The notes below the pieces were generated by a model. It was not told the DNA's origin. It searched no databases and was given only the letters and a program-made list of their open reading frames with translations. From Parvularculaceae bacterium (GTDB taxonomy: Bacteria > Pseudomonadota > Alphaproteobacteria > Caulobacterales > Parvularculaceae), in NCBI GenBank assembly GCA_021776465.1, contig JAJFFU010000185.1, forward strand, positions 1-32,751: a stretch of DNA of 32,751 nucleotides, given 5' to 3'. A program made the translations under genes and the position numbers. This document shows positions 6,135 through 28,218 of this stretch, one piece after another (the first letter of the stretch is position 1; each line of letters starts with the position of its first letter).

Positions 6135-7304
6135 ATGAAAATTTTTCTTGCGATTATCACGATGGCGTTGACGGGAATGGCCTTGAGCGCGTTCGCGCAA
6201 CCAAGCGATGAGCCCGGTAGAAATTGGGATGATGCATTGGGCGCTGAAATTATAGACGCTTGGGCGGCGCCAGAACATCGCGCCTTTGATTTCTGGATTG
6301 GCGAATGGGAAATGAACTGGCGTTCACGACCGGAAGGTGAATTTCATTATCAGAAAGATGGGAACTGGACCCACCAACACGTTTTTCCCATTCTGGGCGG
6401 CAAAGCAATCGTCGAACTTGCCTGGGCCCGCGACAATCCGGATGAAGCGAGCCAACGCGGGTTTTCTATCCGTTATTATGACCCGGCGCGCGAGCGGTGG
6501 GTCATGGCGCAAAACTGGCCGAGTGCTGCAAATCAGGGTTCGGCTTTTCTGGATCAACTCATCGGCGACGATCACCATGGCCGGCTCACCATGTATTCAA
6601 TTGTGCGTCGCCCGCTAAAGGATGACAGCATCGACGTCCAACATCGACGTTACAATTTCGCCGATATTCGTCCCGGCGTCAGTTTTCGTTGGGACGGCTC
6701 CAACACCAAAGACGAAGGCGTGACGTGGACAACCTGGAGTGTCGTTGACGCACATCGTCGCCGCGACCTCGACCCATATACGCCAGCAGGAAGTTCATTT
6801 CCCGGCGTGCATGAAAAAAAGCTCTGTACGGAACAGCCACATGGCGCCTTCGACTTTCTGGAGGGCGAATGGTCCGGAACGGTTACAGACCCGGACGGCA
6901 ACATATCAGACGCGCGCTACAGCGCCGGCCTGGGTCTTGACGGTTGCGGCGTCTTATCCTCGCTTGAAGCGAACGGGCGCAAAACGTTCCTCGCTTATGG
7001 ATACAATGAGCGACACAAGAAATGGGTTATCTTCCGTCTTGATGACCAGCCGGGTTCACCGCACAGTTATTTCGTTTCTGATGCCGCCGGCGAAGGAGCA
7101 ATGTTCGCGCAGGCGCCAGATCTCGCCATCAGTGATGAATTTACAGCATATAATTTGCCGGAATATTTTGAGCCAAAAGCGTCGCTGCAACGGGTTATCT
7201 GGGAAAAAGTAACTGAACGGGAATTCACCCTGCGCGTCGAGACCCGCGCGAATGATGGCGCCGAATGGAGAAACGTTGCGCGATATAACCTTGAAAAACT
7301 GTAG
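6135..7304 (+). CDS. Exported protein with two DUF1579-like domains
   Basis: 389 residues with a Sec signal peptide (MKIFLAIITMALTGMALSAFAQ). Two similar modules follow. The first begins HRAFDFWIGEWEMNW near residue 50, the second HGAFDFLEGEWSGTV near 236. The (E/F)DFxxGEW opening, a lipocalin-like beta-rich body and motifs such as YYDPARERWVMAQNW resemble DUF1579-type proteins, which are uncharacterised and may bind small hydrophobic ligands. The second module is shorter and more diverged. The divergent AraC gene may control it. A single-domain relative is encoded at 23828-24406. The start follows CGGGGATGACAC. Function unknown; lipid or small-molecule binding is an inference. Confidence 0.85.
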   Translation: MKIFLAIITMALTGMALSAFAQPSDEPGRNWDDALGAEIIDAWAAPEHRAFDFWIGEWEMNWRSRPEGEFHYQKDGNWTHQHVFPILGGKAIVELAWARDNPDEASQRGFSIRYYDPARERWVMAQNWPSAANQGSAFLDQLIGDDHHGRLTMYSIVRRPLKDDSIDVQHRRYNFADIRPGVSFRWDGSNTKDEGVTWTTWSVVDAHRRRDLDPYTPAGSSFPGVHEKKLCTEQPHGAFDFLEGEWSGTVTDPDGNISDARYSAGLGLDGCGVLSSLEANGRKTFLAYGYNERHKKWVIFRLDDQPGSPHSYFVSDAAGEGAMFAQAPDLAISDEFTAYNLPEYFEPKASLQRVIWEKVTEREFTLRVETRANDGAEWRNVARYNLEKL

Positions 7305-7375: not shown

Positions 7376-9631
7376 TCACTCGTCGCTAGCGGCGCCCCAG
7401 AGCGCATCGGCGATTTGCTCAATCGATCGGTTGTACGGCTCAACGTGATAATTATGACAGGTCAAACAATTATCCGGCGCACGTCCACGCTGATGGCATT
7501 GCGTACAAGTCTCTCTTTCCATGTCCATGAAACTCGCCGTCCAGCCGTCGGTTATTTCAGCTGAGACGTCTTCGAGCTTATGACAACTGGAACAACCTTC
7601 GTCGTCCATTAATCCAAAATGCGACACATGGGAGAACCGGTTAAAATCCGAAACAACGTCGCCGGGCTTGAACCCATACCAGTTTATTCGAACAGCGCCG
7701 CCGGTAAGCGCCAGGTGGTCGCCAGTATCGCTCGCTCGCATTGTTGAAGGCTCGGTCTCAACGCTATGGCATTTCATACATTTACCAACGGCTTTTTCAT
7801 CGCTTAGTGCGCCAAACAGCAATTCGCCGATAGAGTCCTTCTTGGCGGCCGATACATCCAACCACGTTTTCAGGAACGGATCGGCATGATCGATCGGTCG
7901 ATAGGAAATTGTGCTACCGTCCCGGTACCAACCGCCATTCCTCGCCCATTCCTCATTATTTTCGACAAAAGCCAGCGCCGCACTGAACGGATTTTCCGTA
8001 TCAGCGTCGTCGCTGAGCGTATCATCATCGTTGAGCAGGATTTCATCGTCCGTCAGCAGACTGTCATTGTCGTCGTCTGTCAGCAATATCGCGTCATCAT
8101 CGTCCTCTGTGAGCAAGATGGCGTCATCGTCGCTCAGAACGCCGATGTCGATCAGTGTCGTATCCTCAATGACGCCATTATCAAGAAAAATGGCGTCATC
8201 GCGTTCAACTGATATAACACGGGCATCGTCGTCATCGGACGCCTCGCCTCCCGCGCCGCTGTCGCGATCCGGATCCTGAAAAATATCCATCTCTCCAGAT
8301 CTCAATTTCGCAAGCTCCTCCATCAACATCGGAAACCATTCTTCCTGATTGTTGACCAGTGTGTCTTTGGGAAGTGAGGCGACCAAACGGTTCAGCGTCG
8401 GTTGATCAAAATCACGCTCCAGCGCCTCAGCGAGCCGCCGATTCATTAACGCCGTGCCACCCATTTGGATGTCATAAAATAACGCTTTGATTGCCCAGGC
8501 CATCTCCGCAACGGACCGCAATTCGGCTGGATCGGCGGCGCTCAAATCATAAAAGTCGATGGACCTGTCTTGTAGCGCGGGCGAATTCTGCACCGCCTCC
8601 GGCAACAATAGCTGCATCATCGGCGTCACTTCGCCATCCGCCCATGCCGGCCATTGGCCGATGTAGTAGCCTGCGTCAGTCAACGTCTGAATGTCGAGTT
8701 CCGGGATGGATAATACCGCGACACCTTTTGCGTTCGCCCGCGTATCGCCCAGAATTTCTTCCAGATGGCAATTGGAACACGTCGCTTCAAACGAGTTGGA
8801 GAGCATCCGCGCACCGCTTTGATCCGTGTCATGGCACTGTTTGCAACCTTCGGGCGCACGGTCTGCGAACTCATCCTCAACAAAATGCTTTTTTAAATGC
8901 GAGGCGTGATCAAATCGAATCCGCGTCGGGCCGTCATATGGATAGTGCGTGTAAAGCGGATGTTCTGATTCGACGTCGGCGAATTTCACTGAATGACAGA
9001 CATGGCATTGTTGCGGGTCGAAACTGTCGATAGGCGCGAATTTCCCCTGGTGCTCCCGATGACATACCGCGCAACTGACATTGTCTGACTCCGTCGTTTG
9101 CAGATCGCGTAAATTGCTGGCCAGATTAATGTGCCAATTGTTCTTTGTTTTGACGGGCGTTCTGTTCGGATCGATCGTAAGGTTTTGCTGTGATGTCGAA
9201 TGGGGCATGAACGGATTTCCGCCCAGTTTGTGACAACTAAGGCATTTCGTGTCGTCATTATTCGCGTTCAGATGCGCCGCCTTGTTCATCCAATCGAAAA
9301 TTGTCTCTGAGACAGCCGAATGACAATCCTTGCAATTCGTTACTTCTGCATGATTGACGCTAAGTGGGCCCGGCGACAGATGGTCAACGGTGGTTTTTCC
9401 GGTCAAAAATATTATGATTATGAAAAACGCAATTCCTGCGATCAGGAAAACTATACGGCGCTTACGTGTTCTAACAGACAAAACCGGGGTGCACGGATCG
9501 TCGGCCAGGGGGCATTCTCCACTCACGCCCGGCCCCGCTGAGCATGCATCCCTGTGACCGCACCGCCATTTCTGCGTCGGCCTTGAATACGGGCTGTCGC
9601 GATGCCCGAATTTTTGCATTTGGTCCGTCAT
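7376..9631 (-). CDS. Membrane-anchored decaheme c-type cytochrome with acidic repeat linker
   Basis: 751 residues. A cytoplasmic Cys-rich head (Cys24, 30, 40, 47) and a basic RTRKRR precede one membrane helix (about 60-77). The rest should be periplasmic. Ten CXXCH heme c sites occur. Six lie at 100, 130, 187, 209, 263 and 285, and four at 618, 680, 709 and 722. The two heme modules are separated by a helical stretch and a very acidic repetitive linker (about 465-545, with DDDAILLT-type units). The head resembles Cys-rich N-termini that I recall in some cytochrome c3 family proteins of sulfur and iron bacteria. The ATG overlaps the stop of the upstream cytochrome b-like gene (ATGA), so the two are coupled and probably form a complex. 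It is likely to relay electrons between the membrane and periplasmic partners. Substrate unknown. Confidence 0.9.
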   Translation of the reverse strand: MTDQMQKFGHRDSPYSRPTQKWRCGHRDACSAGPGVSGECPLADDPCTPVLSVRTRKRRIVFLIAGIAFFIIIIFLTGKTTVDHLSPGPLSVNHAEVTNCKDCHSAVSETIFDWMNKAAHLNANNDDTKCLSCHKLGGNPFMPHSTSQQNLTIDPNRTPVKTKNNWHINLASNLRDLQTTESDNVSCAVCHREHQGKFAPIDSFDPQQCHVCHSVKFADVESEHPLYTHYPYDGPTRIRFDHASHLKKHFVEDEFADRAPEGCKQCHDTDQSGARMLSNSFEATCSNCHLEEILGDTRANAKGVAVLSIPELDIQTLTDAGYYIGQWPAWADGEVTPMMQLLLPEAVQNSPALQDRSIDFYDLSAADPAELRSVAEMAWAIKALFYDIQMGGTALMNRRLAEALERDFDQPTLNRLVASLPKDTLVNNQEEWFPMLMEELAKLRSGEMDIFQDPDRDSGAGGEASDDDDARVISVERDDAIFLDNGVIEDTTLIDIGVLSDDDAILLTEDDDDAILLTDDDNDSLLTDDEILLNDDDTLSDDADTENPFSAALAFVENNEEWARNGGWYRDGSTISYRPIDHADPFLKTWLDVSAAKKDSIGELLFGALSDEKAVGKCMKCHSVETEPSTMRASDTGDHLALTGGAVRINWYGFKPGDVVSDFNRFSHVSHFGLMDDEGCSSCHKLEDVSAEITDGWTASFMDMERETCTQCHQRGRAPDNCLTCHNYHVEPYNRSIEQIADALWGAASDE

Positions 9632-10446
9632 GCCGCACCGCGAAAAGCATAAACAAGGACGATATGAACGAACACCATGAATAACAGCACCAAGCCAACC
9701 GGCGCATGTAGAACTCCCCAGAACTTCAATGCACCCTGCAACGCGTAATGCGTATCCAGTGTATTTTTTTGTTCAAGATAGTCCGCCAACTGCATGGCGA
9801 AGGCCGCCTCACGCTGATTGAGGTATCGCATCTGCAGTTCTAAGTCATTAAGGCGCTCCAGATGTGGTTGGCGGCTCCCGATAATATGCGCCAGCCTGTT
9901 CCGGTTTCCGGAAAAGTAGCTGGCCAAATGCTCGTCATAATAATTCGACAACGTAGGCGAATTTGATTCCTCAACAGTCCTCAACAATTCGCGCTCCACG
10001 CGATCTCGAAGCGCAAGAAGGTGACCCGGAATTCGCTCAAAAATGATTTCCTCGTTCAAAAATGCAAGCCTGCGTGCAAATAACCGATTGATGATGCCGC
10101 CGCCGATGCCAACAACGACGACGATCGCCAGTAGGCTCGCGAGAATGCGCTCGACATACCCGTCCGGAATTGAGAATTCGACGTGAATTGCGAATGCGGC
10201 AATCAGAAACAGACCGCTATAGTAATGCCATTGCGCCCAACTGGCGTTGCGTCCGAGGGGAAGAACGCTGAGCTTCTTTTTGACGTAAAATGCGAGCAGA
10301 AATATAATCAGGCCGGCAACCAGCCACCCGGAATAATATTGCTGGACCTGAAGCGATAGCGTGACAATTCTGAACGCATACCAGGTCAGCGCAATTGCGA
10401 TCACCAGGAGTATGGTGTTGCGAATCCGGCGCCTCAGAAATCTCAT
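9628..10446 (-). CDS. Integral-membrane cytochrome b-like protein with two H-x13-H pairs
   Basis: 272 residues with about five hydrophobic segments (near 11-30, 41-55, 72-90, 102-120 and 245-267) and a long soluble loop (about 130-235). His74 and His88 lie in one helix and His247 and His261 in the last. Both pairs are 14 apart, the spacing that clamps two stacked b hemes in cytochrome b and b561-type proteins. It is therefore likely to move electrons across the inner membrane and to exchange them with quinone. It sits between the FeS fusion gene and the decaheme gene and overlaps the latter by four bases. GGAG lies nine bases before the ATG. It does not closely match bc1 cytochrome b, NapC/NrfH or NrfD. 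A ferric-reductase-like fold is another option. Confidence 0.8.
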   Translation of the reverse strand: MRFLRRRIRNTILLVIAIALTWYAFRIVTLSLQVQQYYSGWLVAGLIIFLLAFYVKKKLSVLPLGRNASWAQWHYYSGLFLIAAFAIHVEFSIPDGYVERILASLLAIVVVVGIGGGIINRLFARRLAFLNEEIIFERIPGHLLALRDRVERELLRTVEESNSPTLSNYYDEHLASYFSGNRNRLAHIIGSRQPHLERLNDLELQMRYLNQREAAFAMQLADYLEQKNTLDTHYALQGALKFWGVLHAPVGLVLLFMVFVHIVLVYAFRGAA

Positions 10447-10521
10447 TTAAGTGGTCTCCAACCCACATCACGACCGAATATTTGTTCCCGGCGGACGATT
10501 AGGTTCCTTGACTGGCTTATG

Positions 10522-12255
10522 TCACCGATCCAGCCAATCCGCCAGTTCGCCAACGTCTTTCACGTCGACACGGGTCAAGGCGTCGTGCGAGCAGGCCCGC
10601 ACACAGGCAGGATCCCCGGGCGAGGTGTTACACATATCGCATTTCGTCGCTTTCACGATTGGTATTGATTTCTCATCAGTGAGCAGTTTCCCCTCCTCAT
10701 CGCGAATCGGGACCATTCGAATGTTATCATAAGGACAGCTATTGGCGCACTTGGAGCAGCCAATGCAGGTTTCGTCGTTAATGGAAACGATCCCATTTTC
10801 CGAACGATGAATGGCGCCGGTCGGGCACCCGATCATGCAGACTGGATCGTCGCAATGCATGCAAGCATTGGCAATCATGTACCGGCCAAAAGTCGGGCCG
10901 TGGCGAATAAATTTGGGGTTATTGTCGTGCGCCGCCGCACACGCAGAAACACAATCATCACATCGAATACAACGCTCCAGGTCGATCATCATCGTTTGCG
11001 TCCCATTGACGAAACGATTTTCCACCAGAAATTCTGTAAACTTTCGATCGACTTGCGCGGCCGGCTTGTCGAGTTTTCGTTTTTCGCCCGGCAACGCGTC
11101 CAGTTGTCTGTGTAATTCCGATTGAACTGCATCATTCTGGTCAGCCGCGAAGACGTTCTCCTCAATCCAATGGGTCGGAATACGAATTACATCCGCATAC
11201 CCGAGCGCGCCGTAACTGCAGCGCAATCTTTGCGGTTCGCCACCTTCCCATGAATCGTAAAGCTCCTGCAGGCCGAAAATACTGCCCGCGGCCAGATGCC
11301 CTAATGTGTAATGACCGTGATTAATGCGTCGGCTGACACGAACGAATCCGTTTCGGATTAACAACAGCCCATCGGCAAAACCACCGGCCTTAGCGATAAC
11401 AGGTTCAGCCTCTATCAGACTGTTATAGTCGTCGCTGGTCTCAACCTTCTTTGAAGCTTGTTGAAATTTTCTCTGCCAGGCAAATTCACCATAAACTTCA
11501 TATTGCGCGACATCCGCCAGCGCCCGGATTTTTTCTTTAGTGACATGTCTGAAAAGAGGCACACTGAGCAAATGCTCGTACAGACCGCGCTCACGATATA
11601 GGCTTTCGATTGAGCGATTGAAATCAGGCGCGTATTTGCAAATATCGCGCAATCCTTGCCAGCGAATTTCGAGGACTTGCGTTTTCTCGTTGCTGACAAC
11701 CGTATTGGTCATCTCTGTGCGCCCTAGCACCGCCGATTCACCGAACAAATCGCCAGGACTTAGCGCGACCACTTCAGCGCCTGCCTTTCGCACCAGTGCA
11801 TCCAGGTTCTTTATAGTAATTGCGCCGCGCCGGCGCGTGTTGCGATCGAGCCTGTTCCTGACCGCAGGGCCGATCTTTCGCACTTCGGCAAATCGGCTCT
11901 TTATAAAAAGTTTTTTCAACGCAGAAAAAATCGACGGCTTCGCCGCTTTCACCTGCCCCCATGCGGCCGGATCGATACCAGGCGAGAGGACCAGGCTTGC
12001 ACTACCGGAGAGCACCAGGAACGCCGAGTTTATATAAGCGCCGGCATTAAGAACGAGTTGGCTTTTTCTATACCGACGAACGCGGCAATCATTTCGAATA
12101 ATATCGCGCAAGCTCAACCAATGTGGGAAATCAGATTCCTGCATTCGACTAAAATGCGGCGTCGATAATATCTGATTGATATTCTTGTCCGACATACCAT
12201 CGGAGAACGGTTTATCCCACCGCCTCGGCCGTTGAATTATTTTTCGATGATTCAC
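10522..12255 (-). CDS. Two cyclic-nucleotide-binding-like domains fused to a four-cluster 4Fe-4S ferredoxin
   Basis: 577 residues. The first CNBD-like domain (about 35-230) keeps FGESAVLGRTEMTN, close to the phosphate-binding cassette FGE-x-A-x-x-x-R-T. A second, degenerate one (about 230-375) has GSIFGLQELYDSW. From 429 on there are 16 cysteines in four ferredoxin groups: CIRCDDCVSAC (429), CMHCDDPVCMIGC (465), CIGCSKCANSC (497) and CDMCNTSPGDPACVRAC (539). This is the pattern of the electron-transfer subunit of DMSO-reductase-type complexes. There is no signal peptide or DNA-binding domain, so it is probably cytoplasmic and docks on the membrane cytochrome b encoded next. A nucleotide or similar ligand may gate electron flow. 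The start is a GTG at 12255; ATG 12195 is an alternative. Confidence 0.88.
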   Translation of the reverse strand: MNHRKIIQRPRRWDKPFSDGMSDKNINQILSTPHFSRMQESDFPHWLSLRDIIRNDCRVRRYRKSQLVLNAGAYINSAFLVLSGSASLVLSPGIDPAAWGQVKAAKPSIFSALKKLFIKSRFAEVRKIGPAVRNRLDRNTRRRGAITIKNLDALVRKAGAEVVALSPGDLFGESAVLGRTEMTNTVVSNEKTQVLEIRWQGLRDICKYAPDFNRSIESLYRERGLYEHLLSVPLFRHVTKEKIRALADVAQYEVYGEFAWQRKFQQASKKVETSDDYNSLIEAEPVIAKAGGFADGLLLIRNGFVRVSRRINHGHYTLGHLAAGSIFGLQELYDSWEGGEPQRLRCSYGALGYADVIRIPTHWIEENVFAADQNDAVQSELHRQLDALPGEKRKLDKPAAQVDRKFTEFLVENRFVNGTQTMMIDLERCIRCDDCVSACAAAHDNNPKFIRHGPTFGRYMIANACMHCDDPVCMIGCPTGAIHRSENGIVSINDETCIGCSKCANSCPYDNIRMVPIRDEEGKLLTDEKSIPIVKATKCDMCNTSPGDPACVRACSHDALTRVDVKDVGELADWLDR

Positions 12256-12309
12256 CCAACTTATACCTGTTGCTTGAAAATCGACGCGACGCTTGCTGCG
12301 TATGGAATT

Positions 12310-13422
12310 CTATTGAGGGACAAAGACTGCGCCCTTATATTTGTCAGCGGTCGGCAGCATCGCGTCGACGCCGGCCAGCTCGCTACCGTTCGCGTCAGCG
12401 AATTTACGCGCATGCCCTGCCACCACGCTGGCGACGTCCAATAAAGCAGTTTCATTGTTCAATTTCAAAGTCGCGGATGCGCTTGCATTGATAATTGCGG
12501 TTAGCTGGTCATTGTCGACGGTTTCATCGATTTTCTTCAGGAACGCCAACGCCCGTTGCGCTCGCATCGCCATCGCCTTTGCGTATTCGGCATTTTGCGT
12601 TGCTTTGGCGACACCGCGAAGCGCATATTCATAGTCAAGCATTTTACCGATGATATAAAACAGCCGGCGGCGCTCAAGCGAAGCTTCGGTATTATCTTCT
12701 GTGTACCAAACATTGTGGCGGATTTCGCCTTGCGTCCAACGCACCAGTTCGAATTTGCTGCCGGCCGTGTGCCCGCCAACATTTACGAGACGTTCATTCG
12801 GAACGGTGTGGCAGGAATAACAGTTTGCGGCGAGCTCATAGAGGTTGCTGGGGCGGATCATGCCGGCTGAGTCGGAATCGGCCAGTCGTTTAATTTTGTG
12901 CGCGGGTGTTTCGTTTTCCGCCTTAACATCCTTGCCGCCAAAATCGCTGTGGATGTCTATCCAATCGGCGCCCGCGCTGTGGCAAGACTCGCATGAGATG
13001 CCGGAGATTGGCGTCGGCTTTGCCTCTTCCAGCGCCATTGTGAAATGGCAAGTCAGACAATCGCTCTCCGACTTGATGCGGCTAATTCCCAATTTGTCGG
13101 CTATGGCCCGCGCATCATCGCTGCGCGGCATATCCTTGAACGTGCTCGAATGATGCGTTTCTTTCCAGGCCTTGACGGTTTGCTTGTGACACTCCCCGCA
13201 CGCGTCAGGCCCCTCTACTTGCGCCGGGTCCAACCGGTAATCCGCTGCAAAAGCCGTCGCGCCTGCAAGCGTGAAGAACAAGCATAAAGCAATGACCGCG
13301 AAGACGCGAAAAATTGACTGCGGAGACGCCATACGCGCCGCAGGCCAATTACACCTTTCGCCATTCGGCCGCGCCAACGCCGCTACGCCGGCGCTCACTA
13401 ATTTTGTGTTTTCACTACGCAT
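12310..13422 (-). CDS. Periplasmic tetraheme c-type cytochrome (cytochrome c554-like)
   Basis: Four CXXCH sites at residues 75 (CGECH), 122 (CLTCH), 144 (CESCH) and 201 (CYSCH), then an all-helical, heme-free C-terminal half. The DACGECHKQTVKAWKETHHS opening and the CLTCHF..CESCHSAGADW middle resemble the cytochrome c554 family. A signal peptide ends at about ATAFA. Two starts are possible. The ATG at 13422 has GGAAG upstream but puts 30 residues before the signal region. The ATG at 13332 gives a normal signal peptide (MASPQSIFRVFAVIALCLFF) but has no clear ribosome binding site. It lies upstream of the FeS fusion gene and probably acts as a soluble electron shuttle in the periplasm. Confidence 0.88.
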   Translation of the reverse strand: MRSENTKLVSAGVAALARPNGERCNWPAARMASPQSIFRVFAVIALCLFFTLAGATAFAADYRLDPAQVEGPDACGECHKQTVKAWKETHHSSTFKDMPRSDDARAIADKLGISRIKSESDCLTCHFTMALEEAKPTPISGISCESCHSAGADWIDIHSDFGGKDVKAENETPAHKIKRLADSDSAGMIRPSNLYELAANCYSCHTVPNERLVNVGGHTAGSKFELVRWTQGEIRHNVWYTEDNTEASLERRRLFYIIGKMLDYEYALRGVAKATQNAEYAKAMAMRAQRALAFLKKIDETVDNDQLTAIINASASATLKLNNETALLDVASVVAGHARKFADANGSELAGVDAMLPTADKYKGAVFVPQ

Positions 13423-13727
13423 CTGTCTTAACTTCCGCCGCCCGCATCACATATCGGCGCAGGCAACGCTCCCCCCTTATTAACATCGAGATTTAATCAA
13501 CCGATTTACAAACGCTACCGAATGTTTCTTCGTCTAAACTGGCGCAATGGCGTTAACCGAACAAACCATTAGCACCCATCAATATTTTCCAATGGGCTAT
13601 AGCAAGAACAATTCCTACCGTCGCCGTCAAAGTCCTGCTGAGAAACGCCTGATTGAATAACCTCACAAATATGTGTTGATTCTGTGGCTCATGAGTATGC
13701 TCGTTTTACAGTCGAATCACTTCATTA
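13423..13727. other. 305-base gap inside the cytochrome cluster
   Basis: It separates the porin-like gene (stop 13728) from the tetraheme gene, so the cluster probably has a second promoter here. I see no clear terminator or sigma-54 motif. A 37-codon GTG-started frame (13553-13666, minus) encodes a hydrophobic peptide but lacks a ribosome binding site. TCACA-AATA-TGTG near 13663 is a partial inverted repeat of unknown meaning. Confidence 0.5.
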
Positions 13728-15188
13728 TTATAGCTTCGCTTGCAATTCTATCCTGGCGCCCGTGGCCGCGTCGTCGTTTTCCCGTTTGGTGACGAACGCG
13801 TCGAACTGTATAAATGTCCGATTGCCGAGCGCGCGCTGGGCACGCATGCCGACGCCATATTCGTTTTCAAGTGACGGGATTTGATCTCCATATTCGAACC
13901 GGGCGCCGGCTTCCACCGTGAATTGCGTGCGCCGATCGTTTGAGAATTTTTGATAGCCAAGCGCCGCGCCGCCGGCTTCGTTTGCACTATTGCTCAACGG
14001 CGATGGAAACGTTCCGATGCCTTGCGCAGCGAATAGCAATCCGGTTCGGCCCAATGGTCCGCCGGCAAGCGGCCCCCTGGCCGCAGATGTGAAATTATCA
14101 ATTCCGAAAAATCCATCGAGATACAAATTGTCGTGGGTATTTTTGGGAACCCAGGACAGCTCCATAAACAAGAGGAGCCCAGTATCAGATTGAGGCGTCA
14201 CACCGTCGACAGCATTCGAATATGCAGCCCTGAACGTTGCATTAGTCTTGCCAATACGCCGCGTTGCATCAATGCCGACATTTAATAAATCGCCCGTCTG
14301 ATCGGATTCCACATAGGCGACGTCAACATTAAACGTCGTATTAGGAGTGTCGATCTGGTTAAACCATCCGTAGAACTTGGCATCACGGTCGCGCTGATTA
14401 TTGCCCCTGTGAACGCCTCCCAAGCCGACAAAAATACTGGTCCGCCAGTTTACGATGTGCGGATTGTTCGTGAACCGAATATTATTTTTACTGAGACCAA
14501 AGCCGTCCATATTGTCATTGACGATAAACCCGTCGCCGAAAATCACGTTCTGACGGCCGAAACTGATGCCGATATCGTTTTTGGTGCTGTCGAACAGATC
14601 CCACTTCGGAAAGATCTCCGCGAGATCGCCCTCAAAAAACAGCGTGTCGACTTCGAAGTTTAATTCGTCGACATACCCTTCCTGATTGTCCGGCGAGAAC
14701 ACCCTGCCGGAAAATGCGCCGGTATCGCGGTTGTGCAAGGGGGTGACGCCAAACAAGATCCGCTCAGTGCCGCTCAATTGCAAATTCGCAAACAGGTCAA
14801 GCCGATTGGCCCATTCAGAAACGGTATCGTCATTGTCGTTTTCATAGGCCTGAAACGCCGTGCGGAAATTACCGTAAACCCATAATGACGGCGTCCAGAC
14901 GGCGCCAGTTGGCAACGTAATACCGCGCGAAATATTGCCCGTCCCCAGAAATTTCGGCCCGATTTCGAGTATCGGCGAGGTTCGCCCCGGAAGGTCGTCT
15001 TCCGATAAAAAAGGCGTTGGTTCGTCGTTCAATGACTCGGTGGCGTAATCGCCCGCGAGAACCACCGTTGTCGGCAATGCAAAAATGGGCAGCATAGGCG
15101 CGTAATCGCCCGCAAGGCCCGCTGTTGGCAACGCCAAAACGGGAAACGAGGCGACAGCGCCAAGCCAGCGGGATCTCATATTACGCAT
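13728..15188 (-). CDS. Outer-membrane beta-barrel protein of the cytochrome cluster
   Basis: 486 residues with a signal peptide and no heme motif. The body is rich in alternating amphipathic strands with aromatic girdles (for example LFANLQLSGTERILFGVTPL and WRTSIFVGLGGVHRG). It ends ATGARIELQAKL, a typical terminal beta-strand for BAM-assembled barrels. It lies 30 bases downstream of the pentaheme gene, so the two are co-transcribed. In porin-cytochrome conduits such as MtrCAB or PioAB a barrel houses a multiheme cytochrome. This protein is shorter than MtrB or PioB (about 700 or more residues) and I do not see their CXXC signature, so homology to them is not claimed. The export signal region carries a 57-base tandem duplication. 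GGGGGAG precedes the ATG. Confidence 0.85.
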   Translation of the reverse strand: MRNMRSRWLGAVASFPVLALPTAGLAGDYAPMLPIFALPTTVVLAGDYATESLNDEPTPFLSEDDLPGRTSPILEIGPKFLGTGNISRGITLPTGAVWTPSLWVYGNFRTAFQAYENDNDDTVSEWANRLDLFANLQLSGTERILFGVTPLHNRDTGAFSGRVFSPDNQEGYVDELNFEVDTLFFEGDLAEIFPKWDLFDSTKNDIGISFGRQNVIFGDGFIVNDNMDGFGLSKNNIRFTNNPHIVNWRTSIFVGLGGVHRGNNQRDRDAKFYGWFNQIDTPNTTFNVDVAYVESDQTGDLLNVGIDATRRIGKTNATFRAAYSNAVDGVTPQSDTGLLLFMELSWVPKNTHDNLYLDGFFGIDNFTSAARGPLAGGPLGRTGLLFAAQGIGTFPSPLSNSANEAGGAALGYQKFSNDRRTQFTVEAGARFEYGDQIPSLENEYGVGMRAQRALGNRTFIQFDAFVTKRENDDAATGARIELQAKL

Positions 15189-15218
15189 AATTCGAACTCG
15201 CTCCCCCGAGCTTGCTGA

Positions 15219-17138
15219 TCAGAAATTTACCGTCATTTGTTTTTCCCAAATCACCTGATGATTTGCGACGAGATTATCGGCGACTTCCCGCGCTGACATG
15301 CCGTAGTCAAATCCAACCGGCGAGATTTCATGCACCAAATTCACGGGAACCGCCGCAGATTTCAGCTTGTAGTCAATCGTGACACTCGCGGCGCCGGCCA
15401 ATTGTGATTTCGTGACTTTGTATTTGGCGATTCGCGTCGCAGACGGCGGGATTGTCTTGCGATGTTTGCGCGCAGCGCCCGGCTGACCGGTCAACATCAG
15501 CGACCGGGTGAACGGCCGAACAAAAGGCGTGACATCGGTTGAATAATTGACCGCCAGCACCTGTTCGCGCTCTCCGCCGCGCAAATTGCGCGTCAAAAAC
15601 TTCGACTGAAGGTTGAACAAGTACTTATCGCGCTTCAATTTTCCGTTGTGCACATACACTGAATGAGCGTCGCGCAAGTCGCCATTCGGGTCCAGATCGC
15701 CTGATTTGAATATGATTGCACCGGCCTCGTTTCGAACCGTCACTTCCAGCCATAACAATCGCTCGGCGTCAAAACCGGTCGGTACGTTGTGGCCGTCCGT
15801 TCCGTTACTGACCGGAATTTCAAACGTCAGCCCGCGCGCGCTTTTTTTCTGAACTTCTAATTCACCCAACAAATAACCGTTGCGCAGAACCTCAAGGCGT
15901 TTGGATGCGGCCCAGTCCAGTAATTCATGCTGATCTTCGATGATTGCACGCGCATCATAGCGATCGTCAATTGCGCGCCAGCGCGCAGGAAAGGCGTAAT
16001 CGTCAGGAACGTCATCTTCAAACGCGTCCGTCCCCCAGCCGGCTTCGTGATCAAACTCCAGCCACTCCTGCAACGTCGCCATTTCTGTTGCATCAGCGTT
16101 GTGCGGAAAGATGCCGGGATGAATAACGGAGTAATCCGGTCCGGCAAAGAAGTGGTTTGTCAGCTTGCGTGGTTGGGTCGCGACGCCGCCAACAATAGCT
16201 GCAGGGCCGCGCTTATATTCGGAAATCGCGCCCTGAACGGTACCCATATGGCAGTCCTGGCAGCTCTCGCCGCGCGCCGCCGCCGGCGAATTTTTGTATT
16301 CGGAGAACGCCTCCTCCAGTCGAAATCCGTTGAACAGATTAACGTCATGGCAGGAGCCGCAAAATTGTGATGTTTGTATTTGCTCGAAGTGACCCACTTT
16401 CGTGTGAATTTGACGGCCGGGTTCGCCTTCTTCAGTGACGACCCGGTATTGATCGCGATTATCGAGAACGCGGTTCAATTCCTTGTCGCCGGTCGGTCCG
16501 TAGACTTCCGTCAGGAGGTTTCCTTCAACCAGCGCAAGGCGCCCAGACGCTTTCCCATAAGCCTGATTAACGCGGTGGCAGACGACACAAGTAATGCCCT
16601 CACGCGAAGTTGGGTGCCGCGTTAAATTCGATTGATAGGGCGACTCTCCAATATTCATGCCCACTTGCGTATGGCAGCGAATGCAAAAATCGCCATTCGT
16701 ACCGTTACTCAATTGATTGATGCGGTTCTGCATCGCCATGTAGATCGGGCTGAGCTGAGCGTAGGCGTGCTGGGAGACGGACCATTCCTTGTAGTGGGCC
16801 TCATGACACGTTTTACAGGTATTGGCGGACGGATAGCGGTCCTCTGTAAAAAGCGCCAAATGGGCTTCCGCCGCTTCGTCCAGGCTCGCCGTCTCAACGC
16901 CGGTCGTGGCGTCTTCATCATCTTCGTCGAACAGAGCGTCTTCGGAGAGCTCGCCGGTCAATAAATCATCTGACGTCAGTTCTTCTTCGGTCAACAATTG
17001 ATCCAGTAGCAAGTCATCATCGGATTGCGCGTTGTCCTGCGCATAGCTTCGCGATTGACCGTGCAAAATGAAAATACCAGTCGCACACACCGTTAGCGCA
17101 ACGATGAAAACGACGGCTCTGTTTGGGCGTTGTCTCAC
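15219..17138 (-). CDS. Exported pentaheme c-type cytochrome with acidic N-terminal region
   Basis: 639 residues from a GTG. A signal peptide or anchor (about 8-32) is followed by an acidic, leucine-punctuated stretch (about 38-90, DDLLLDQLLTEEELTSDDLL type). Five CXXCH sites follow at 108, 152, 184, 260 and 293, in a layout like cytochrome c554 family proteins (TCKTCHEAHYKEWSVSQHA; GESCQDCHMG). The second half has no hemes. It contains GHNVPTGFDAERLLWLEVTV and DYKLKSAAVP, suggesting a beta-sandwich domain as in several larger multiheme proteins. This is the first gene of the cluster, about 260 bases from ppx. It may be periplasmic or surface-exposed next to the barrel protein. Substrate not known. 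Confidence 0.9.
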   Translation of the reverse strand: MRQRPNRAVVFIVALTVCATGIFILHGQSRSYAQDNAQSDDDLLLDQLLTEEELTSDDLLTGELSEDALFDEDDEDATTGVETASLDEAAEAHLALFTEDRYPSANTCKTCHEAHYKEWSVSQHAYAQLSPIYMAMQNRINQLSNGTNGDFCIRCHTQVGMNIGESPYQSNLTRHPTSREGITCVVCHRVNQAYGKASGRLALVEGNLLTEVYGPTGDKELNRVLDNRDQYRVVTEEGEPGRQIHTKVGHFEQIQTSQFCGSCHDVNLFNGFRLEEAFSEYKNSPAAARGESCQDCHMGTVQGAISEYKRGPAAIVGGVATQPRKLTNHFFAGPDYSVIHPGIFPHNADATEMATLQEWLEFDHEAGWGTDAFEDDVPDDYAFPARWRAIDDRYDARAIIEDQHELLDWAASKRLEVLRNGYLLGELEVQKKSARGLTFEIPVSNGTDGHNVPTGFDAERLLWLEVTVRNEAGAIIFKSGDLDPNGDLRDAHSVYVHNGKLKRDKYLFNLQSKFLTRNLRGGEREQVLAVNYSTDVTPFVRPFTRSLMLTGQPGAARKHRKTIPPSATRIAKYKVTKSQLAGAASVTIDYKLKSAAVPVNLVHEISPVGFDYGMSAREVADNLVANHQVIWEKQMTVNF

Positions 17139-18844: not shown

Positions 18845-19318
18845 TCAGGCGCCCCGTTCGAGATCGCGAAACGCCTTGCGTAGGTCGTATTCGTTCGACG
18901 TTACCGCCGTTTCCAGATCGGCAATGCGCATATCAAGAGCGCGGAAGCGGTGTTTCAATTCTGAAAACGTAACTCGCGGTCGCGTCGAAAATGTTCGCCA
19001 GAATTTTTCTTCGTCCTTGTCCGCGAAATGCGGCTCAACCGGGGTAGCCGGCTTGATAAAAATGGCGGCGCCGAGATAAAGGAAGGCTGGCACAGGAAAG
19101 AAAAACACCGTCAGCACGATTGCCAAAACGCGGGTCCATTTGAGGCTCCATCCGAAATAATCGGCAAGCCCTGCGCAGACGCCGGCTATTTTCCCTCTCT
19201 CCGGCAGACGGCGAAGCCGGTGCAGATTTGGTCCGGGACCCGGCGCGCCGGCATTGCGCGCATAACTCGACCGGTCGCGCCAATGATGGTGATGGTGGTG
19301 GTGGTGACGCTCAGGCAT
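18845..19318 (-). CDS. pspC: Phage shock protein C (PspC) with natural His8 tract
   Basis: About 157 residues from the ATG at 19318, which overlaps the pspB stop by eight bases; the longer frame to 19426 lies inside pspB. It begins MPERHHHHHHHHWRDR, then a Pro/Gly linker, then the PspC domain: RLRRLPERGKIAGVCAGLADYFGW, LKWTRVLAIVLTVFFFPVPAFLYLGAAIFIKP (membrane helix). A C-terminal cytoplasmic or periplasmic helix follows (SELKHRFRALDMRIADLETAV). PspC is an inner-membrane sensor that with PspB draws PspA off PspF when the membrane is stressed. Eight consecutive histidines near the N-terminus are unusual and could bind metal. The C-terminal coiled-coil is probably the PspA or PspB contact. Confidence 0.93.
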   Translation of the reverse strand: MPERHHHHHHHHWRDRSSYARNAGAPGPGPNLHRLRRLPERGKIAGVCAGLADYFGWSLKWTRVLAIVLTVFFFPVPAFLYLGAAIFIKPATPVEPHFADKDEEKFWRTFSTRPRVTFSELKHRFRALDMRIADLETAVTSNEYDLRKAFRDLERGA

Positions 19319-19556
19319 GAGGCCGCTCCGGATAATCGTCGCGCCAGTCCGGCGCTTCCTTGTCCAAAATGGTCTCCAGCGCTTCAACGCGGCGCTCCAG
19401 ACGCTGCGCTGTCCGCCAGAGATCATCGACGAGCCGTTCGTCGTCGGCGGAAATCGATTTTGTTTTTCGCAGCTCCGTCATGTAGCGAAGCACGACCGAC
19501 GGAAACGCGACAAAGATGATCGCGACAATCGCAATGATCCAAATAAATTCGCCCAT
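19311..19556 (-). CDS. pspB: Phage shock protein B
   Basis: 81 residues. One N-terminal membrane helix (FIWIIAIVAIIFVAFPSVVLRY, about 4-25) is followed by a basic stretch (ELRKTK) and a leucine-zipper-like coiled coil (DDLWRTAQRLERRVEALETIL). The length and layout match PspB, the partner of PspC in transmitting envelope stress to PspA. It lies 20 bases after pspA and overlaps pspC by eight bases, so all three are translated together. The tail DWRDDYPERPHA matches alphaproteobacterial versions in its acidic, aromatic character. Confidence 0.93.
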   Translation of the reverse strand: MGEFIWIIAIVAIIFVAFPSVVLRYMTELRKTKSISADDERLVDDLWRTAQRLERRVEALETILDKEAPDWRDDYPERPHA

Positions 19557-19576
19557 TTTCTAGCCCCTTAGACCTC

Positions 19577-20251
19577 TCAGCTATGTGATGTGCGGGCCGC
19601 AAGGCGCGCTTTCAAGGCGTCAAGCTCAGCTTTTACCGCATCTTCTGATTCCAGCTCAGCAAATTCGTCTTCCAGCGTGCGCGGCCGACCGAGGGTCCAG
19701 CTCTCCGCTTCCGCCTCCAATTCATCGACCCGCCGCTCATATCGCTCGAACCGCGCAAGCGCGTCGTCGATGCGTCCGTCGTTGACCTGGCGACTGATCC
19801 GAACGGCGTCCGAGGCCGCATTGCGGCGGACTTCCAGCGAACGCTGTTTGGCCCGCGCCTCTTTCAGTTTCACCTGAAGCTTGTCCAGATCGCCATTGGT
19901 TTTGTCGACCGTTTCGTCGATTGCTTTCAGCTCATTATCGAGCAGACCGATCATCTCCTCGGCCTTGCGTTTGGCGGAGATTGCGCCTTTCGCCAGGTCG
20001 TCGCGGCCTTTGCCGATAGCCAGTTCGGCCTTCGTCTCCCACTCGCCGGAGCGGCGTTTGAAGTCATCGCGCTTGCGCGTGATTTCCTTCTTGTCGGCGA
20101 TAGCGCGCGCTGCATTCGAGCGCACCTCCACCAGCGTGTCCTCCATTTCCTGGATGATCAGCCGCACGATCTTTTCGGGATCTTCGGCATGATCGAGCAT
20201 GGAGTTGATGTTCGAATTGACGATGTCGCTTAGTCTGGAAAAAACGCCCAT
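19577..20251 (-). CDS. pspA: Phage shock protein A (PspA/IM30 family)
   Basis: 224 residues, almost entirely helical coiled coil, beginning MGVFSRLSDIVNSNINSMLD. The first amphipathic helix binds the membrane. The block EDPEKIVRLIIQEMEDTLVEVR is the family signature, followed by ARAIADKKEITRKRDDF. Like VIPP1, PspA assembles into large scaffolds that protect the inner membrane, and it inhibits PspF in the absence of stress. The start at 20251 is supported by AAGGAG nine to twelve bases upstream. Another ATG in a different frame lies just before it. It is the second gene of the operon, 13 bases after the 41-aa peptide gene, and probably sigma-54 controlled. Confidence 0.97.
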   Translation of the reverse strand: MGVFSRLSDIVNSNINSMLDHAEDPEKIVRLIIQEMEDTLVEVRSNAARAIADKKEITRKRDDFKRRSGEWETKAELAIGKGRDDLAKGAISAKRKAEEMIGLLDNELKAIDETVDKTNGDLDKLQVKLKEARAKQRSLEVRRNAASDAVRISRQVNDGRIDDALARFERYERRVDELEAEAESWTLGRPRTLEDEFAELESEDAVKAELDALKARLAARTSHS

Positions 20252-20264
20252 GGGTCATGTCTCC

Positions 20265-20390
20265 TTAAAAAATGATTCCGCCGAGGATGAATCCAATGAA
20301 AAAAGCGCCCCAGGCGAAGCCGGCGCGGCCTGATACGGCCCGGTCCATCCGGCTCCCCCAATCGCGATCGTCATGTCGGTAACGGCTCAT
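20265..20390 (-). CDS. 41-residue membrane peptide heading the psp operon
   Basis: ATG at 20390 preceded by AGAAGGAGAAATCAG (strong site). TAA at 20265, just before the pspA ribosome binding site. The product is MSRYRHDDRDWGSRMDRAVS then GRAGFAWGAFFIGFILGGIIF. A charged N-terminus is followed by one Gly/Phe-rich membrane helix (about 24-41) that ends at the stop. It is the first gene downstream of the sigma-54 promoter and shares the operon with pspA, pspB and pspC. No name is known to me. A small membrane partner of Psp proteins is the obvious but unproven guess. The frame is intact and strongly supported by translation signals. Confidence 0.75.
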   Translation of the reverse strand: MSRYRHDDRDWGSRMDRAVSGRAGFAWGAFFIGFILGGIIF

Positions 20391-20440
20391 TCTGATTTCT
20401 CCTTCTTGCGGGGTTAAATTTCCCGTCTGCTCTTAACCAT

Positions 20441-20457
20441 TGCGAAAGCCGTGCCAG
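20441..20457 (-). promoter_or_regulatory. Sigma-54 promoter of the psp operon
   Basis: On the minus strand, CTGGCACGGCTTTCGCA matches the -24/-12 consensus (YTGGCACGrNNNTTGCW), with GG and GC separated by exactly 10 bases. It lies about 50 bases upstream of the 41-aa peptide start and is oriented toward the psp genes, with pspF divergent. The only deviation in the -12 box is TCGC for TTGC. Confidence 0.85.
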
Positions 20458-20488
20458 TTTTTGAGATTTCTCATAAGAGATTGATATT

Positions 20489-20511
20489 GCTAATAAATTT
20501 TATAAATTAGC
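20489..20511. promoter_or_regulatory. Candidate PspF binding site (upstream activator)
   Basis: AT-rich imperfect palindrome GCTAAT-AAATTTTATAA-ATTAGC, about 35-55 bases upstream of the sigma-54 promoter and 80-100 bases before the pspF start. Its position and the GCTAA/TTAGC half-sites fit an enhancer-protein site shared by the divergent genes. Assignment to PspF is inferred. Confidence 0.45.
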
Positions 20512-20589
20512 ATTTTCACACTTGAAGCTTATGTCTTTTTTCACCAATATAATGGATAATTACACCAGTTATTTTGGTATTTTTCGCCT

Positions 20590-21648
20590 ATGGAAACACA
20601 ACAAACCGCACCAGAACTCATTGGCCAGAGCCCCGTTTTTCTTGATGCACTTGCCCATGCTTCTGATGTCGCGAACGTCGACCGACCAGTGCTCATCATT
20701 GGCGAGCGCGGAACCGGCAAGGAATTGCTGGCCGCGCGATTGCATTTTCTTTCTGCTCGCTGGGAGGCTCCGCTCGTCAAGCTCAACTGCGCGGCGATGA
20801 ATGAGGAACTGCTCGAGAGCGAATTGTTCGGGCACGAGGCTGGCGCTTTTACCGGCGCGACGAAAAAACACCGCGGCCGTTTCGAGCGCGCTGAGGGGGG
20901 CACGCTGTTCCTCGACGAAATCGCCTCAGCCAGCGGACGGGTTCAGGAAAAACTTTTGCGCGTCATTGAATATGGCGAATACGAACGGGTCGGCGGCGAG
21001 GCATCGCGCCTTGCCGATGTGCGCATCGTCGCTGCCGCGAATGTCGATTTACGCGCGCGCGCAGCGTCCGGCGATTTTCGCGCGGATCTGCTCGATCGGC
21101 TGGCCTTCGACGTTGTCATCGCCCCACCCTTACGCGATCGGCGCGAAGACATCGCATTATTGGCGGCGCATTTTGCGGCCGCGATGGCCTCGGAACTTGG
21201 CGAGCCGTTTCCGGGGCTGGCGCCGGGCGCTGTGGCGATATTGCAGGCCCATCATTGGCCAGGAAATGTCCGTGAGCTGAAGAATGCAGCAGAGCGAGCC
21301 ATGTTTCACTGGTCGCGCGCACGCGACGCCGACCAAATCGAAAACATAACCATTGATCCCTTCGATCAGGCGGGAGCGCCCGAGGATGCAATCGCCAAAG
21401 CGCCGCAAGCGGCAGTGATAACCACGCCATCGTTGGATTCGTCGCCGGGCCGCCCGTTCAACCTGCGAGACCGTCTCGACGATATCGAAAAGCGCCTGGT
21501 GACGGACGCCCTTACCACTGCAGGCGGCAGTCAGAAACGCGCCGCCGGACGACTTGGCCTCAGCTATAACCAACTCCGCGGCATCATCCGCAAGCATGAC
21601 ATCGACGCAAAGAAAATCGCCAGTATTGCCGCCGACGCAGCAGGATAA
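20590..21648 (+). CDS. pspF: PspF, sigma-54-dependent activator of the phage shock operon
   Basis: 352 residues. The AAA+ domain starts at once, without an N-terminal regulatory domain, which is the hallmark of PspF. Walker A GERGTGKE is at 38-45, the sigma-54-contacting GAFTGA at 85-90 and Walker B GGTLFLDE at 103-110. The sensor region includes ADVRIVAAANVDLRA, and the arginine finger lies in FRADLLDRLAF. WPGNVRELKNAAERA follows. A Fis-type helix-turn-helix ends the protein (GGSQKRAAGRLGLSYNQLRGIIRKH). PspA normally inhibits it through direct contact. It is divergent from pspA and its operon, with the sigma-54 promoter between. The pspF start itself lacks a strong ribosome binding site, which fits low expression. 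Confidence 0.95.
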   Translation: METQQTAPELIGQSPVFLDALAHASDVANVDRPVLIIGERGTGKELLAARLHFLSARWEAPLVKLNCAAMNEELLESELFGHEAGAFTGATKKHRGRFERAEGGTLFLDEIASASGRVQEKLLRVIEYGEYERVGGEASRLADVRIVAAANVDLRARAASGDFRADLLDRLAFDVVIAPPLRDRREDIALLAAHFAAAMASELGEPFPGLAPGAVAILQAHHWPGNVRELKNAAERAMFHWSRARDADQIENITIDPFDQAGAPEDAIAKAPQAAVITTPSLDSSPGRPFNLRDRLDDIEKRLVTDALTTAGGSQKRAAGRLGLSYNQLRGIIRKHDIDAKKIASIAADAAG

Positions 21649-23439: not shown

Positions 23440-23831
23440 GCACTGGCGATTTTACGAGCCCAATGCGCAGCGTCGGCGCAGCGCAATGTCACCGCTCGGG
23501 AACCGGGATCGGCCGGACGCACGGTTAAAGCGCCGTTTTCAGCCTGCACCGTCGCTTCGCCACGAGCAAAGCGCCGCGTCACCAGATCGGCGCCAAGACG
23601 GCGAACGAGGGCGAATTCGCCTGCTGTTCCTTCGGCAAGCGCTGCCCGCCCCTCCTCGTCCATCACCCACACCGCCGGCTTGAAATCAGGTTCGTCAAAG
23701 GCGAGACGAGCGCGCGCCGCCGTTTCATCGACAGCAACCGGCGGCGCGCGGAAGGCGAGCCAGGCGGCGAGTATCATCAGCCCGATGGCGCTAAGGGAGA
23801 TCGCTGAATCGAGAAAGAGATTGCCGGTCAC
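23436..23831 (-). CDS. Unknown membrane-anchored protein (131 aa)
   Basis: One N-terminal membrane helix (about 10-28, AISLSAIGLMILAAWLAFRA) is followed by a soluble beta-rich region (FKPAVWVMDEEGRAALAEG, GEFALVRRLGADLVTRRFARG). The RxxGxDLVTRRF..G segment followed by short strands resembles domains that sense or adapt, but I do not recognise a family. Its start overlaps the stop of the DUF1579-like gene by four bases, and its stop overlaps the sterol-desaturase-family start. The three are probably made in fixed ratio and may work in one membrane-lipid pathway. That is inference from gene order. Confidence 0.8.
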   Translation of the reverse strand: MTGNLFLDSAISLSAIGLMILAAWLAFRAPPVAVDETAARARLAFDEPDFKPAVWVMDEEGRAALAEGTAGEFALVRRLGADLVTRRFARGEATVQAENGALTVRPADPGSRAVTLRCADAAHWARKIASA

Positions 23832-26169: not shown

Positions 26170-26312
26170 CTTTTGCGCTGAAACGCCGCCCCGTGAGCGA
26201 CGCTAGGCCGCAGTCCCCGACCGCCTAGACTTAGTACATAGGACATGCAAAACCGGCGCGCGCAATTGCGCCAGAAAAACAGCGCGATAACTTGTCAGGG
26301 GCGACATTTGCA

Positions 26313-26909: not shown

Positions 26910-26923
26910 CAGGAAATCAATAA

Positions 26924-28213: not shown

Positions 28214-28218
28214 TCGCG

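Follow-up and report, generated by a model that had tools for sequence, protein, structure and literature searches.

Conduits of the MtrAB type cross the outer membrane in a barrel of 26 strands, and their electrons enter at the inner membrane through a quinol oxidizer of the CymA, ImcH or CbcL type. Assemblies such as Hmc, Tmc and Qrc of Desulfovibrio and DsrMKJOP combine an iron-sulfur (FeS) protein, a membrane protein and a multiheme cytochrome c at the inner membrane, and NOX enzymes send electrons outward from an FAD/NAD module over two b hemes held by two His pairs ca. 13–14 residues apart. For pentaheme cytochromes, the accessible parts of PMC11976967 define a PHC family that groups cytochrome c552 with Geobacter ExtKL and Gsu2801, and describe a Geobacter Ext cluster in which the porin gene extI occurs with extKL and extMN. 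Here, we analyze 32,751 nucleotides of DNA from a Parvularculaceae bacterium (GenBank assembly GCA_021776465.1, contig JAJFFU010000185.1, positions 1 to 32,751; the window) whose minus strand encodes, from 17138 to 7376, six open reading frames (ORFs) in the order A-B-C-D-E-F that specify a candidate electron-transfer chain across the cell envelope.

On balance, and with no more than middling confidence, we read the cluster as a trans-envelope electron-export chain that would run from NAD(P)H through a flavoprotein, X, or a flavin domain fused to D, along D-E-F-C, and on to A and B. X is a seventh gene that is usual among relatives and absent from the window. An initial annotation had described six consecutive minus-strand genes with 19 heme c sites (5+4+10), a barrel protein, a 16-Cys ferredoxin fused to nucleotide-binding-like domains, and a membrane protein with two H-x13-H pairs, and had set the architecture apart from MtrCAB, PioAB and Cyc2; every one of these elements was recovered, with all ORFs at the place and on the strand it gave. 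Its suggestion that the system is undescribed also stands as far as one open-access full-text library goes, a scope that leaves most subscription journals aside: searches there turned up neither a description of the cluster nor a known system that it matches gene for gene, and none is given in the accessible parts of PMC10734462, PMC11976967 and PMC13322032.

Cofactor sites and predicted folds

The heme c count rests on CxxCH motifs, of which A contains five, C four and F ten, where shuffling (2000 shuffles per protein) predicts 0.005–0.03. Homologues keep these numbers, with five motifs in 50/52 A, four in 77/80 C and ten in 74/88 F proteins, and some of the exceptions are ORFs cut by contig ends. 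The genome carries two Cytochrom_C_asm genes, which are needed for heme c attachment. Together with invariant ligands and conserved linkage, the motif counts rule out chance or artefact as the origin of the cluster. The genes are separated, from A to F, by 30, 305, 54, 75 and −4 bp, a spacing that fits a single transcript.

At the outer end, A (15219..17138, minus strand, 639 amino acids) is a predicted secreted pentaheme cytochrome with a five-heme part and a C-terminal β-rich part. In a fold search of the PDB, its structure model (mean predicted local distance difference test score, pLDDT, 75.7) matched a single entry below E 0.001, 5ze8 (E 6e-13), which is cytochrome c552, a pentaheme protein from Thermochromatium tepidum. 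The alignment spans 571 columns with a template modelling score of 0.65 normalized to 5ze8 and 0.42 normalized to A, at a root-mean-square deviation of 7.7; by sequence, the C-terminal part of A reaches a non-significant 6.8 bits against 5ze8. The model thus places A by predicted fold in the pentaheme c552/PHC family, whose members combine five CxxCH hemes with an Ig-like domain at the C-terminus. In addition to the CxxCH motifs, A has six invariant His residues for its five hemes, which would permit bis-His ligation of every heme.

B (13728..15188, minus strand, 486 amino acids) belongs to no sequence family that we could find: Pfam and NCBIfam gave no match, and a profile search for solved relatives yielded nothing useful. 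Its model (mean pLDDT 83.9) is a β-barrel with 18 strands of eight or more residues, or 19 of six or more, in line with a predicted location in the outer membrane. There were 231 fold matches below E 0.001; the 50 listed are mostly chitoporin, AlgE and OprD/Occ, and also include MOMP, PorB, Wzi and OmpM1 and no MtrB. Given ca. 18 strands and this chitoporin/AlgE/OprD-like fold, a decaheme-filled MtrAB tube is unlikely, and we rejected an MtrAB-type conduit for B. The c552-type A and the smaller predicted barrel bear out the distinction from MtrCAB and PioAB.

C (12310..13422, minus strand, 370 amino acids) is a secreted tetraheme cytochrome that probably belongs to the c554 superfamily; it passes Pfam Cytochrome_C554 (52.1 bits, cut-off 20.8), its profile finds cytochrome c554 (1bvb) at 1e-13, and it scores 44.9 bits against a cut-off of 400 for the Nitrosomonas c554 equivalog. 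A signal-like hydrophobic stretch occupies residues 40–58, so the true start probably lies downstream of 13422. E (9628..10446, minus strand, 272 amino acids) is a predicted membrane cytochrome b. H74 and H88, and H247 and H261, form its two H-x13-H pairs and are His in 89/89 E proteins and in 12/12 of the long form introduced below, and two b hemes are expected. Hydropathy (cut-off 1.5) gives helices at about 12–30, 37–64, 101–119 and 250–268. Neither the ferric reductase nor the cytochrome b561 cut-off was passed; in a Pfam scan of 13 E proteins the one family to match was DUF4405, which 4 of them hit at an E-value ≤ 0.01, and a profile search for solved relatives returned nothing useful. 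F (7376..9631, minus strand, 751 amino acids) is a decaheme cytochrome with a Cys-rich N-terminus, one predicted transmembrane helix at about residues 60–85 and hemes split 6+4; its profile search for solved relatives gave a weak match.

A and F also share acidic DD[x]LL repeats, located in the N-terminal tail of A (ca. 16908–17027) and in the inter-heme linker of F (ca. 7991–8239). Among 44 loci with both genes, at least three repeats occur in both proteins in 11, in A only in 5, in F only in 3 and in neither in 25 (Fisher p 1.3e-4). Within those 11 loci, pairing each A with the F of its own genome gives more shared 4-mers than pairing it with the F of another (5.45 vs 2.48; 1 of 5000 permutations as high). 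Because the pattern was picked after inspecting the sequences, these p values are optimistic, and they are uncorrected for relatedness. The repeats hint at a common docking partner of A and F.

D (10522..12255, minus strand, 577 amino acids) is a fusion of two cyclic-nucleotide-binding-like domains (CNBDs) and a ferredoxin part with 16 Cys for a predicted four [4Fe-4S] clusters. Pfam recognizes two cNMP_binding stretches together with Fer4 domains; 15 of the Cys positions are Cys in 95/95 D proteins and one in 94/95. The ferredoxin part matches the DsrO and HmcB models below cut-off. Since D has no transmembrane helix, we take it as cytoplasmic.

Conservation, a seventh gene and possible nucleotide binding

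A scan of GTDB representatives with the window's D returned 390 stretches (tblastn E ≤ 1e-3), of which the best 80 by similarity were retained. We distinguish a short form of D (E below 1e-70, our own cut) from a long form; the D threshold in the class sample below is E ≤ 1e-22. Across collections, 101 short-D loci reduced to 94 distinct ones after removal of six duplicates and of L044, a 4.9-kb contig. Gene counts come from per-gene profile searches of the locus ORFs, with C matches below 150 bits excluded. Fifty of the 94 loci extend 7 kb or more beyond D in both directions. Among these, E and F are always present (50/50 each), X is found in 47/50, C in 45/50, and A and B in 32/50; all seven genes stand together in 31/50. 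The neighborhood search that the initial annotation had proposed thus found its six genes together in 32/50 loci. Eighteen of the 50 lack A near D; six of the seven such genomes searched carry A elsewhere, and B adjoins 7 of 8 distant A copies.

This association also holds genome-wide. In a class sample of 289 genomes, D occurs in 45 (20 short, 25 long), and all 24 genomes with a strong A have D (18 short, 6 long; Fisher p 5e-23). That count omits the four weakest of 28 A genomes, namely G046 (a fragment; it has long D) and G040, G079 and G095 (no D); with them included, 25/28 have D. Short D without A occurs in G162, a 4.9-kb contig, and G165, which is 74% complete. A phylum sample of 398 genomes contains D at E ≤ 1e-60 in 13, including the source genome. 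Going by record titles, carriers were found in Pseudomonadota, Planctomycetota, Verrucomicrobiota, Nitrospinota, Nitrospirota, SAR324, Omnitrophota, Zixibacteria and Poribacteria, and the cluster, as recognized by its genes, appears widespread, with nine or more groups of phylum rank represented. Two further records, one Kiritimatiellae and one Chloroflexi, are doubtful because proteobacterial D proteins either nearly equal theirs in sequence or surround it in the tree. Nearly identical D genes occur in a "Kiritimatiellae" and a "Gammaproteobacteria" metagenome-assembled genome (MAG; L094, L095), and the D of a contig labelled Akkermansia muciniphila (L131) is nearly identical to that of a Lake Baikal Pedosphaera MAG; these identities are probable binning or naming errors and matter for phylum counts. 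Carriers include named strains, Hwanghaeella grinnelliae Gri0909 and Ferruginivarius sediminum WD2A32 among them, which makes the question testable.

The window's contig (C96) belongs to an alphaproteobacterial MAG (G000) of 3.43 Mb and 83% completeness, and the same cluster occurs in a second genome of the genus, a Marinicaulis sp. of the Parvularculaceae (G023, 98% complete). Among 40 genomes including its own, an 80% identical D is present in G023 only, and four others of the genus have a 30% identical long-form D. In a D tree made by a quick method, both Marinicaulis D proteins fall within a six-member set whose other four members come from gammaproteobacterial MAGs (support 99), with a long-branch warning between this clade and the long-form outgroup. 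From this nesting, it seems that the window's cluster was probably acquired by transfer and lost X afterwards.

X encodes a membrane-anchored NAD(P)H/FAD/2Fe-2S reductase of about 420 amino acids. In a set of 79, an N-terminal hydrophobic helix is present in 77 and the 2Fe-2S motif in 78. FAD_binding_6, NAD_binding_1 and Fer2 matched in both X proteins scanned against Pfam, one of which passes the ferric reductase NAD-binding model; three scanned against NCBIfam scored best with the flavohemoprotein Hmp and reached no cut-off. An identity as NqrF was rejected (104.5, 112.4 and 88.9 bits, cut-off 295). Close gammaproteobacterial relatives of the window's cluster do have X (418–419 amino acids); three of them (L072, L074 and L075) carry it in the B-C interval, whereas in L073 it precedes D on the upstream side. 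The corresponding gap in the window (13423..13727, 305 bp) and its Marinicaulis counterpart, 304–305 bp in the two genomes, contain no remnant of X. Relocation within the window's genome was likewise rejected, as only a MOSC-FAD/2Fe-2S fusion with an NAD-binding part was found (567-amino-acid ORF, contig C54, L151 1483-3186; 32% identity); the paralogue in G023 lies in a 357-amino-acid frame. Since the window's genome is 83% complete, X could sit on a missing contig. The initial annotation saw no catalytic reductase or flavin domain, which is true of the window; for the family, X supplies one.

A second flavoprotein attachment comes from the long form of D. Of 13 long loci, the one scanned is from Sphingobium herbicidovorans; its D comprises Pyr_redox, two CNBDs and the ferredoxin part and is followed by an E homologue, decaheme F and a calcineurin-like phosphoesterase, which on a related plasmid is annotated as CpdA. 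The flavin function of the long form thus appears fused to D instead of residing in a separate X. The N-terminus of long-form F matches an FHA-like model below cut-off. Two such large Sphingobium plasmids (L008 7786-18897 on pMSHV of S. herbicidovorans, and L009) carry long-form D-E-F with the CpdA-like phosphoesterase and also encode a ten-heme cytochrome of 1329 amino acids that contains LVIVD repeats and may serve the shared inner-membrane unit as an alternative outer module. The two attachments to the FeS-CNBD/cytochrome b/decaheme unit are the best evidence for where the chain begins in the cytoplasm.

The outer end varies as well. In family f181, a homologue of 5ze8 of near full length (E 2.5e-44) lies beside C-X-D-E-F, an arrangement seen in four genomes (L172, L176, L180, L181). 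Three genomes of this family (G345, G354 and G375) contain a second c552-type pentaheme apart from the D cluster. When 61 genomes related to one carrier were compared, short D occurred in 8 of the 22 that encode a c552 homologue and in 1 of the 39 that do not (Fisher p 7e-4).

The CNBDs of D raise the possibility of nucleotide gating. The FGE motif of the first CNBD is kept in nearly all D proteins (F in 93/95, G and E in 95/95 each), and the Arg of its phosphate-binding cassette is present in 87/95. In the window, the cassette spans residues 171–184 (11704..11745, minus strand), with Met182 in place of the usual Arg. The commonest homologous extra neighbor of the cluster is a class III nucleotide cyclase, found at 15/94 loci and confirmed by Pfam Guanylate_cyc in 13/13 tested; a small profile finds cyclases at 18/94 short-form and 3/13 long-form loci. 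Within 2.1 kb of the cluster edge a cyclase lies at 17/94 short-form loci, where about 0.9 would be expected from counts in 19 genomes that were chosen partly for an adjacent cyclase, with L107 left out. Pfam confirms 13 of these 17 adjacent cyclases; those at L129, L045, L049 and L134 were identified by the small profile alone. For L106, just one cyclase match was found genome-wide, and by its coordinates it is the gene located 226 bp away from the cluster. These neighbors suggest possible gating through D in the family. In the window's clade, no cyclase occurs in the five loci fetched, nor among the scanned proteins of the window's flanks. Besides cyclases, homologous neighbor groups reach at most 9/94 loci, and no conserved catalytic neighbor was found.

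Further genes in the window lie outside the cluster. Upstream, past a Ppx/GppA gene, is a psp-type stress locus (18845-21648) with a PspC that has an eight-His run, PspA, and a sigma-54 activator on the opposite strand. Beyond it, ORFs at 26292-29145 were read by eye as Rieske protein, cytochrome b and cytochrome c1. A similar F(L/W)IG(D/E)(Y/W) motif is shared by two ORFs (6135-7304 and 23828-24406) that begin with signal-like sequences and match no Pfam family, and one of them lies directly downstream of F on the opposite strand.

Proposed electron export and its rivals

The export chain proposed above would operate as follows. NAD(P)H would be oxidized by X, with its FAD, 2Fe-2S cluster and single transmembrane anchor, or in the long form by the flavin domain fused to D. 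D, with its four [4Fe-4S] clusters, would hand the electrons on to E, whose two b hemes would carry them across the membrane to anchored decaheme F. If the H74-H88 helix is transmembrane helix 3, then helices 3 and 5 would be parallel, with the H74-H247 pair near the cytoplasm and the H88-H261 pair near the periplasm. C would relay electrons from F to A, which may work in contact with B at the outer membrane. In relatives that bear the Arg, the CNBD of D, in some cases supplied by the adjacent class III cyclase, would switch the flow. Transfer from NAD(P)H to multiheme cytochromes is downhill, and electrons moving outward run along the membrane potential. For these reasons we favor outward flow. 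The initial annotation held that the direction could not be told; because X is usual in the family, a cytoplasmic donor can be inferred and the direction argued, with the outward sense still a proposal. Its suggested link from the cytoplasm to the periplasm and surface fares similarly: a coherent system that recurs together stands, its usual form has a seventh gene, and delivery to the surface is only presumed. Such a chain would spend rather than conserve membrane potential. It would thus be less suited to main respiration than to balancing the cell's redox state, reducing metals for uptake, redox chemistry at the surface or survival at low oxygen.

Several observations weigh against this reading. 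Two links of the family mechanism fail in the window's own genome: X is absent, with only 32–33% identical paralogues found (G000, G023), and the CNBD Arg is lost throughout the window's clade, being Met or Ile in 6/6. With no cyclase found in that clade either, gating is proposed for the family and not for the window's copy, where D is probably fed by another flavoprotein or a ferredoxin and the usual gating is probably absent. Even in the family, the strict NAD-site pattern occurs in only 46/79 X proteins, and the cyclase neighbors are phylogenetically clustered, representing perhaps seven independent events as we read the tree. A and B are not adjacent to D in 18/50 loci, and the linkage rates hold for the family members closest to the window, since of the 390 stretches the 80 most similar to the window's D were used. 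The E helix with H74 and H88 peaks at 1.46, just under the cut-off, which 62/88 homologues pass. The B model resembles a substrate porin rather than a cytochrome-filled conduit. The c552 family is not tied to D (short D in only 8/22 c552 genomes), and a role for c552 in sulfur metabolism is suggested in the accessible parts of PMC11976967. Finally, the mechanism is proposed from genes and models by computation.

In one alternative scheme, B admits a small soluble substrate that A or C reduces in the periplasm or at the outer membrane, for respiration or detoxification, and the rest of the chain delivers NAD(P)H electrons. The nearest solved folds of B are mostly substrate channels (chitoporin, AlgE, OprD/Occ), the profile of C has a weak match to MccA (E 4e-5), and f181 has a c552-type pentaheme in the place of A/B with no adjacent barrel; yet no separate catalytic gene recurs, the non-cyclase neighbors staying at or below 9/94 loci, and the six extra invariant His of A would allow hemes that are all bis-His ligated. 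We regard this scheme as unlikely, and as the least unlikely of the four considered here. A reversed chain, taking electrons from Fe(II), sulfide or another outside donor through A, C, F, E and D to make cytoplasmic NAD(P)H, would suit the several carriers labelled Nitrospinota or Nitrospirales, groups with lithotrophs, and multiheme chains are reversible in principle. Electrons would, however, have to move from periplasmic hemes to NAD+, redox-uphill and against the membrane potential; many carriers belong to mainly heterotrophic groups (Planctomycetota, Verrucomicrobiota), and no non-cyclase neighbor family reaches 10/94 loci, in the absence of a genome-wide search for lithotrophy genes. We consider this reversal improbable.

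The inner-membrane end could instead be quinone-linked, with E oxidizing quinol and D merely regulating or branching the flow. The two-heme b-type core of E resembles quinol-oxidizing cytochromes, and the window lacks X, but X accompanies D in 47/50 short loci, the single long D that was scanned has a pyridine-nucleotide oxidoreductase as part of the same protein, and 16 conserved Cys would be needless in a purely regulatory D. We hold a quinol donor to be very unlikely. Least credible, and scarcely to be expected, is that A forms an extracellular cytochrome filament for which B is the export or anchor pore: A has the c552 fold, and c552 and pentaheme relatives are reported, in the accessible parts of PMC11976967, as structurally related to the archaeal nanowire AvECN, but the Foldseek search of A found no nanowire chain below E 0.001, and the A protein has, besides its acidic tail, a sizeable β-rich part at the C-terminus.

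A broader form of the export proposal is doubtful enough that we offer it only tentatively. A new inner-membrane module, made up either of X-D-E-F or of E and F together with a flavin-fused D, might perform second-messenger-gated electron export from NAD(P)H to the outer membrane in nine or more phylum-level groups, cyclic nucleotides from the adjacent cyclase directly opening or closing the redox chain. As part of the same tentative claim, the outer modules would be interchangeable, being the A/B porin-pentaheme pair, a c552 pentaheme or the ten-heme LVIVD cytochrome of the Sphingobium megaplasmids. For the export chain in general, linkage of the cytoplasmic NAD(P)H pool, and not of quinol, to outer-membrane multihemes would constitute a distinct route of electron export, and a D gated by cyclic nucleotides would be an electron carrier under direct second-messenger control. 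Carriers of the cluster include Planctomycetota, Verrucomicrobiota and marine Alphaproteobacteria, known mainly as heterotrophs and not as electroactive bacteria. The system would also supply biochemical context for c552-family pentahemes, which have no clear assigned role in the accessible parts of PMC11976967.

Comparison with described systems

Of the described proteins, those of the c552/PHC family come closest to the outer end of the cluster. A aligns with 5ze8, has five hemes and a C-terminal β-rich part, and the f181 clusters contain a c552 homologue outright. A is larger and is accompanied by D-E-F, which the accessible parts of PMC11976967 do not mention for ExtKL; against the ExtKL model NF040886 (NCBIfam, cut-off 250) A scores 30.6 bits and the f181 protein 40.6, both below cut-off, and most of the c552 homologues found are in genomes without short D. 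The Geobacter Ext cluster, as described in the same parts of that source, likewise places a PHC pentaheme near an outer-membrane porin gene with further multihemes, with no mention there of counterparts to D, E, F or X.

At the inner membrane, Hmc, Tmc, Qrc and DsrMKJOP resemble the cluster in pairing FeS protein, membrane protein and multiheme cytochrome, and D has its below-cut-off matches to DsrO and HmcB. The six genes, in contrast, include neither an NrfD-type nor a heterodisulfide-reductase subunit, D has CNBDs, and a barrel is part of the set. NOX and ferric reductases would share with X and E the combination of an FAD/NAD module and two b hemes on paired His ca. 13–14 residues apart, but E stays below the family cut-offs, the flavin, ferredoxin and membrane parts are separate proteins here, and the acceptor would be a decaheme cytochrome.

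MtrCAB, PioAB and other porin–cytochrome systems similarly encode multihemes together with an outer-membrane barrel. Here, the predicted barrel has ca. 18 strands instead of 26, a pentaheme takes the place of the MtrA-type decaheme (A scores 31.8 bits against the DmsE model, cut-off 192.2, and F and C are not listed), and an FeS-CNBD protein with a cytochrome b would provide the input in place of a CymA-, ImcH- or CbcL-type quinol oxidizer. Judged by its genes, the cluster is thus a predicted multiheme system of trans-envelope electron transport that, without the defining features of the porin–cytochrome systems, is like them in purpose.

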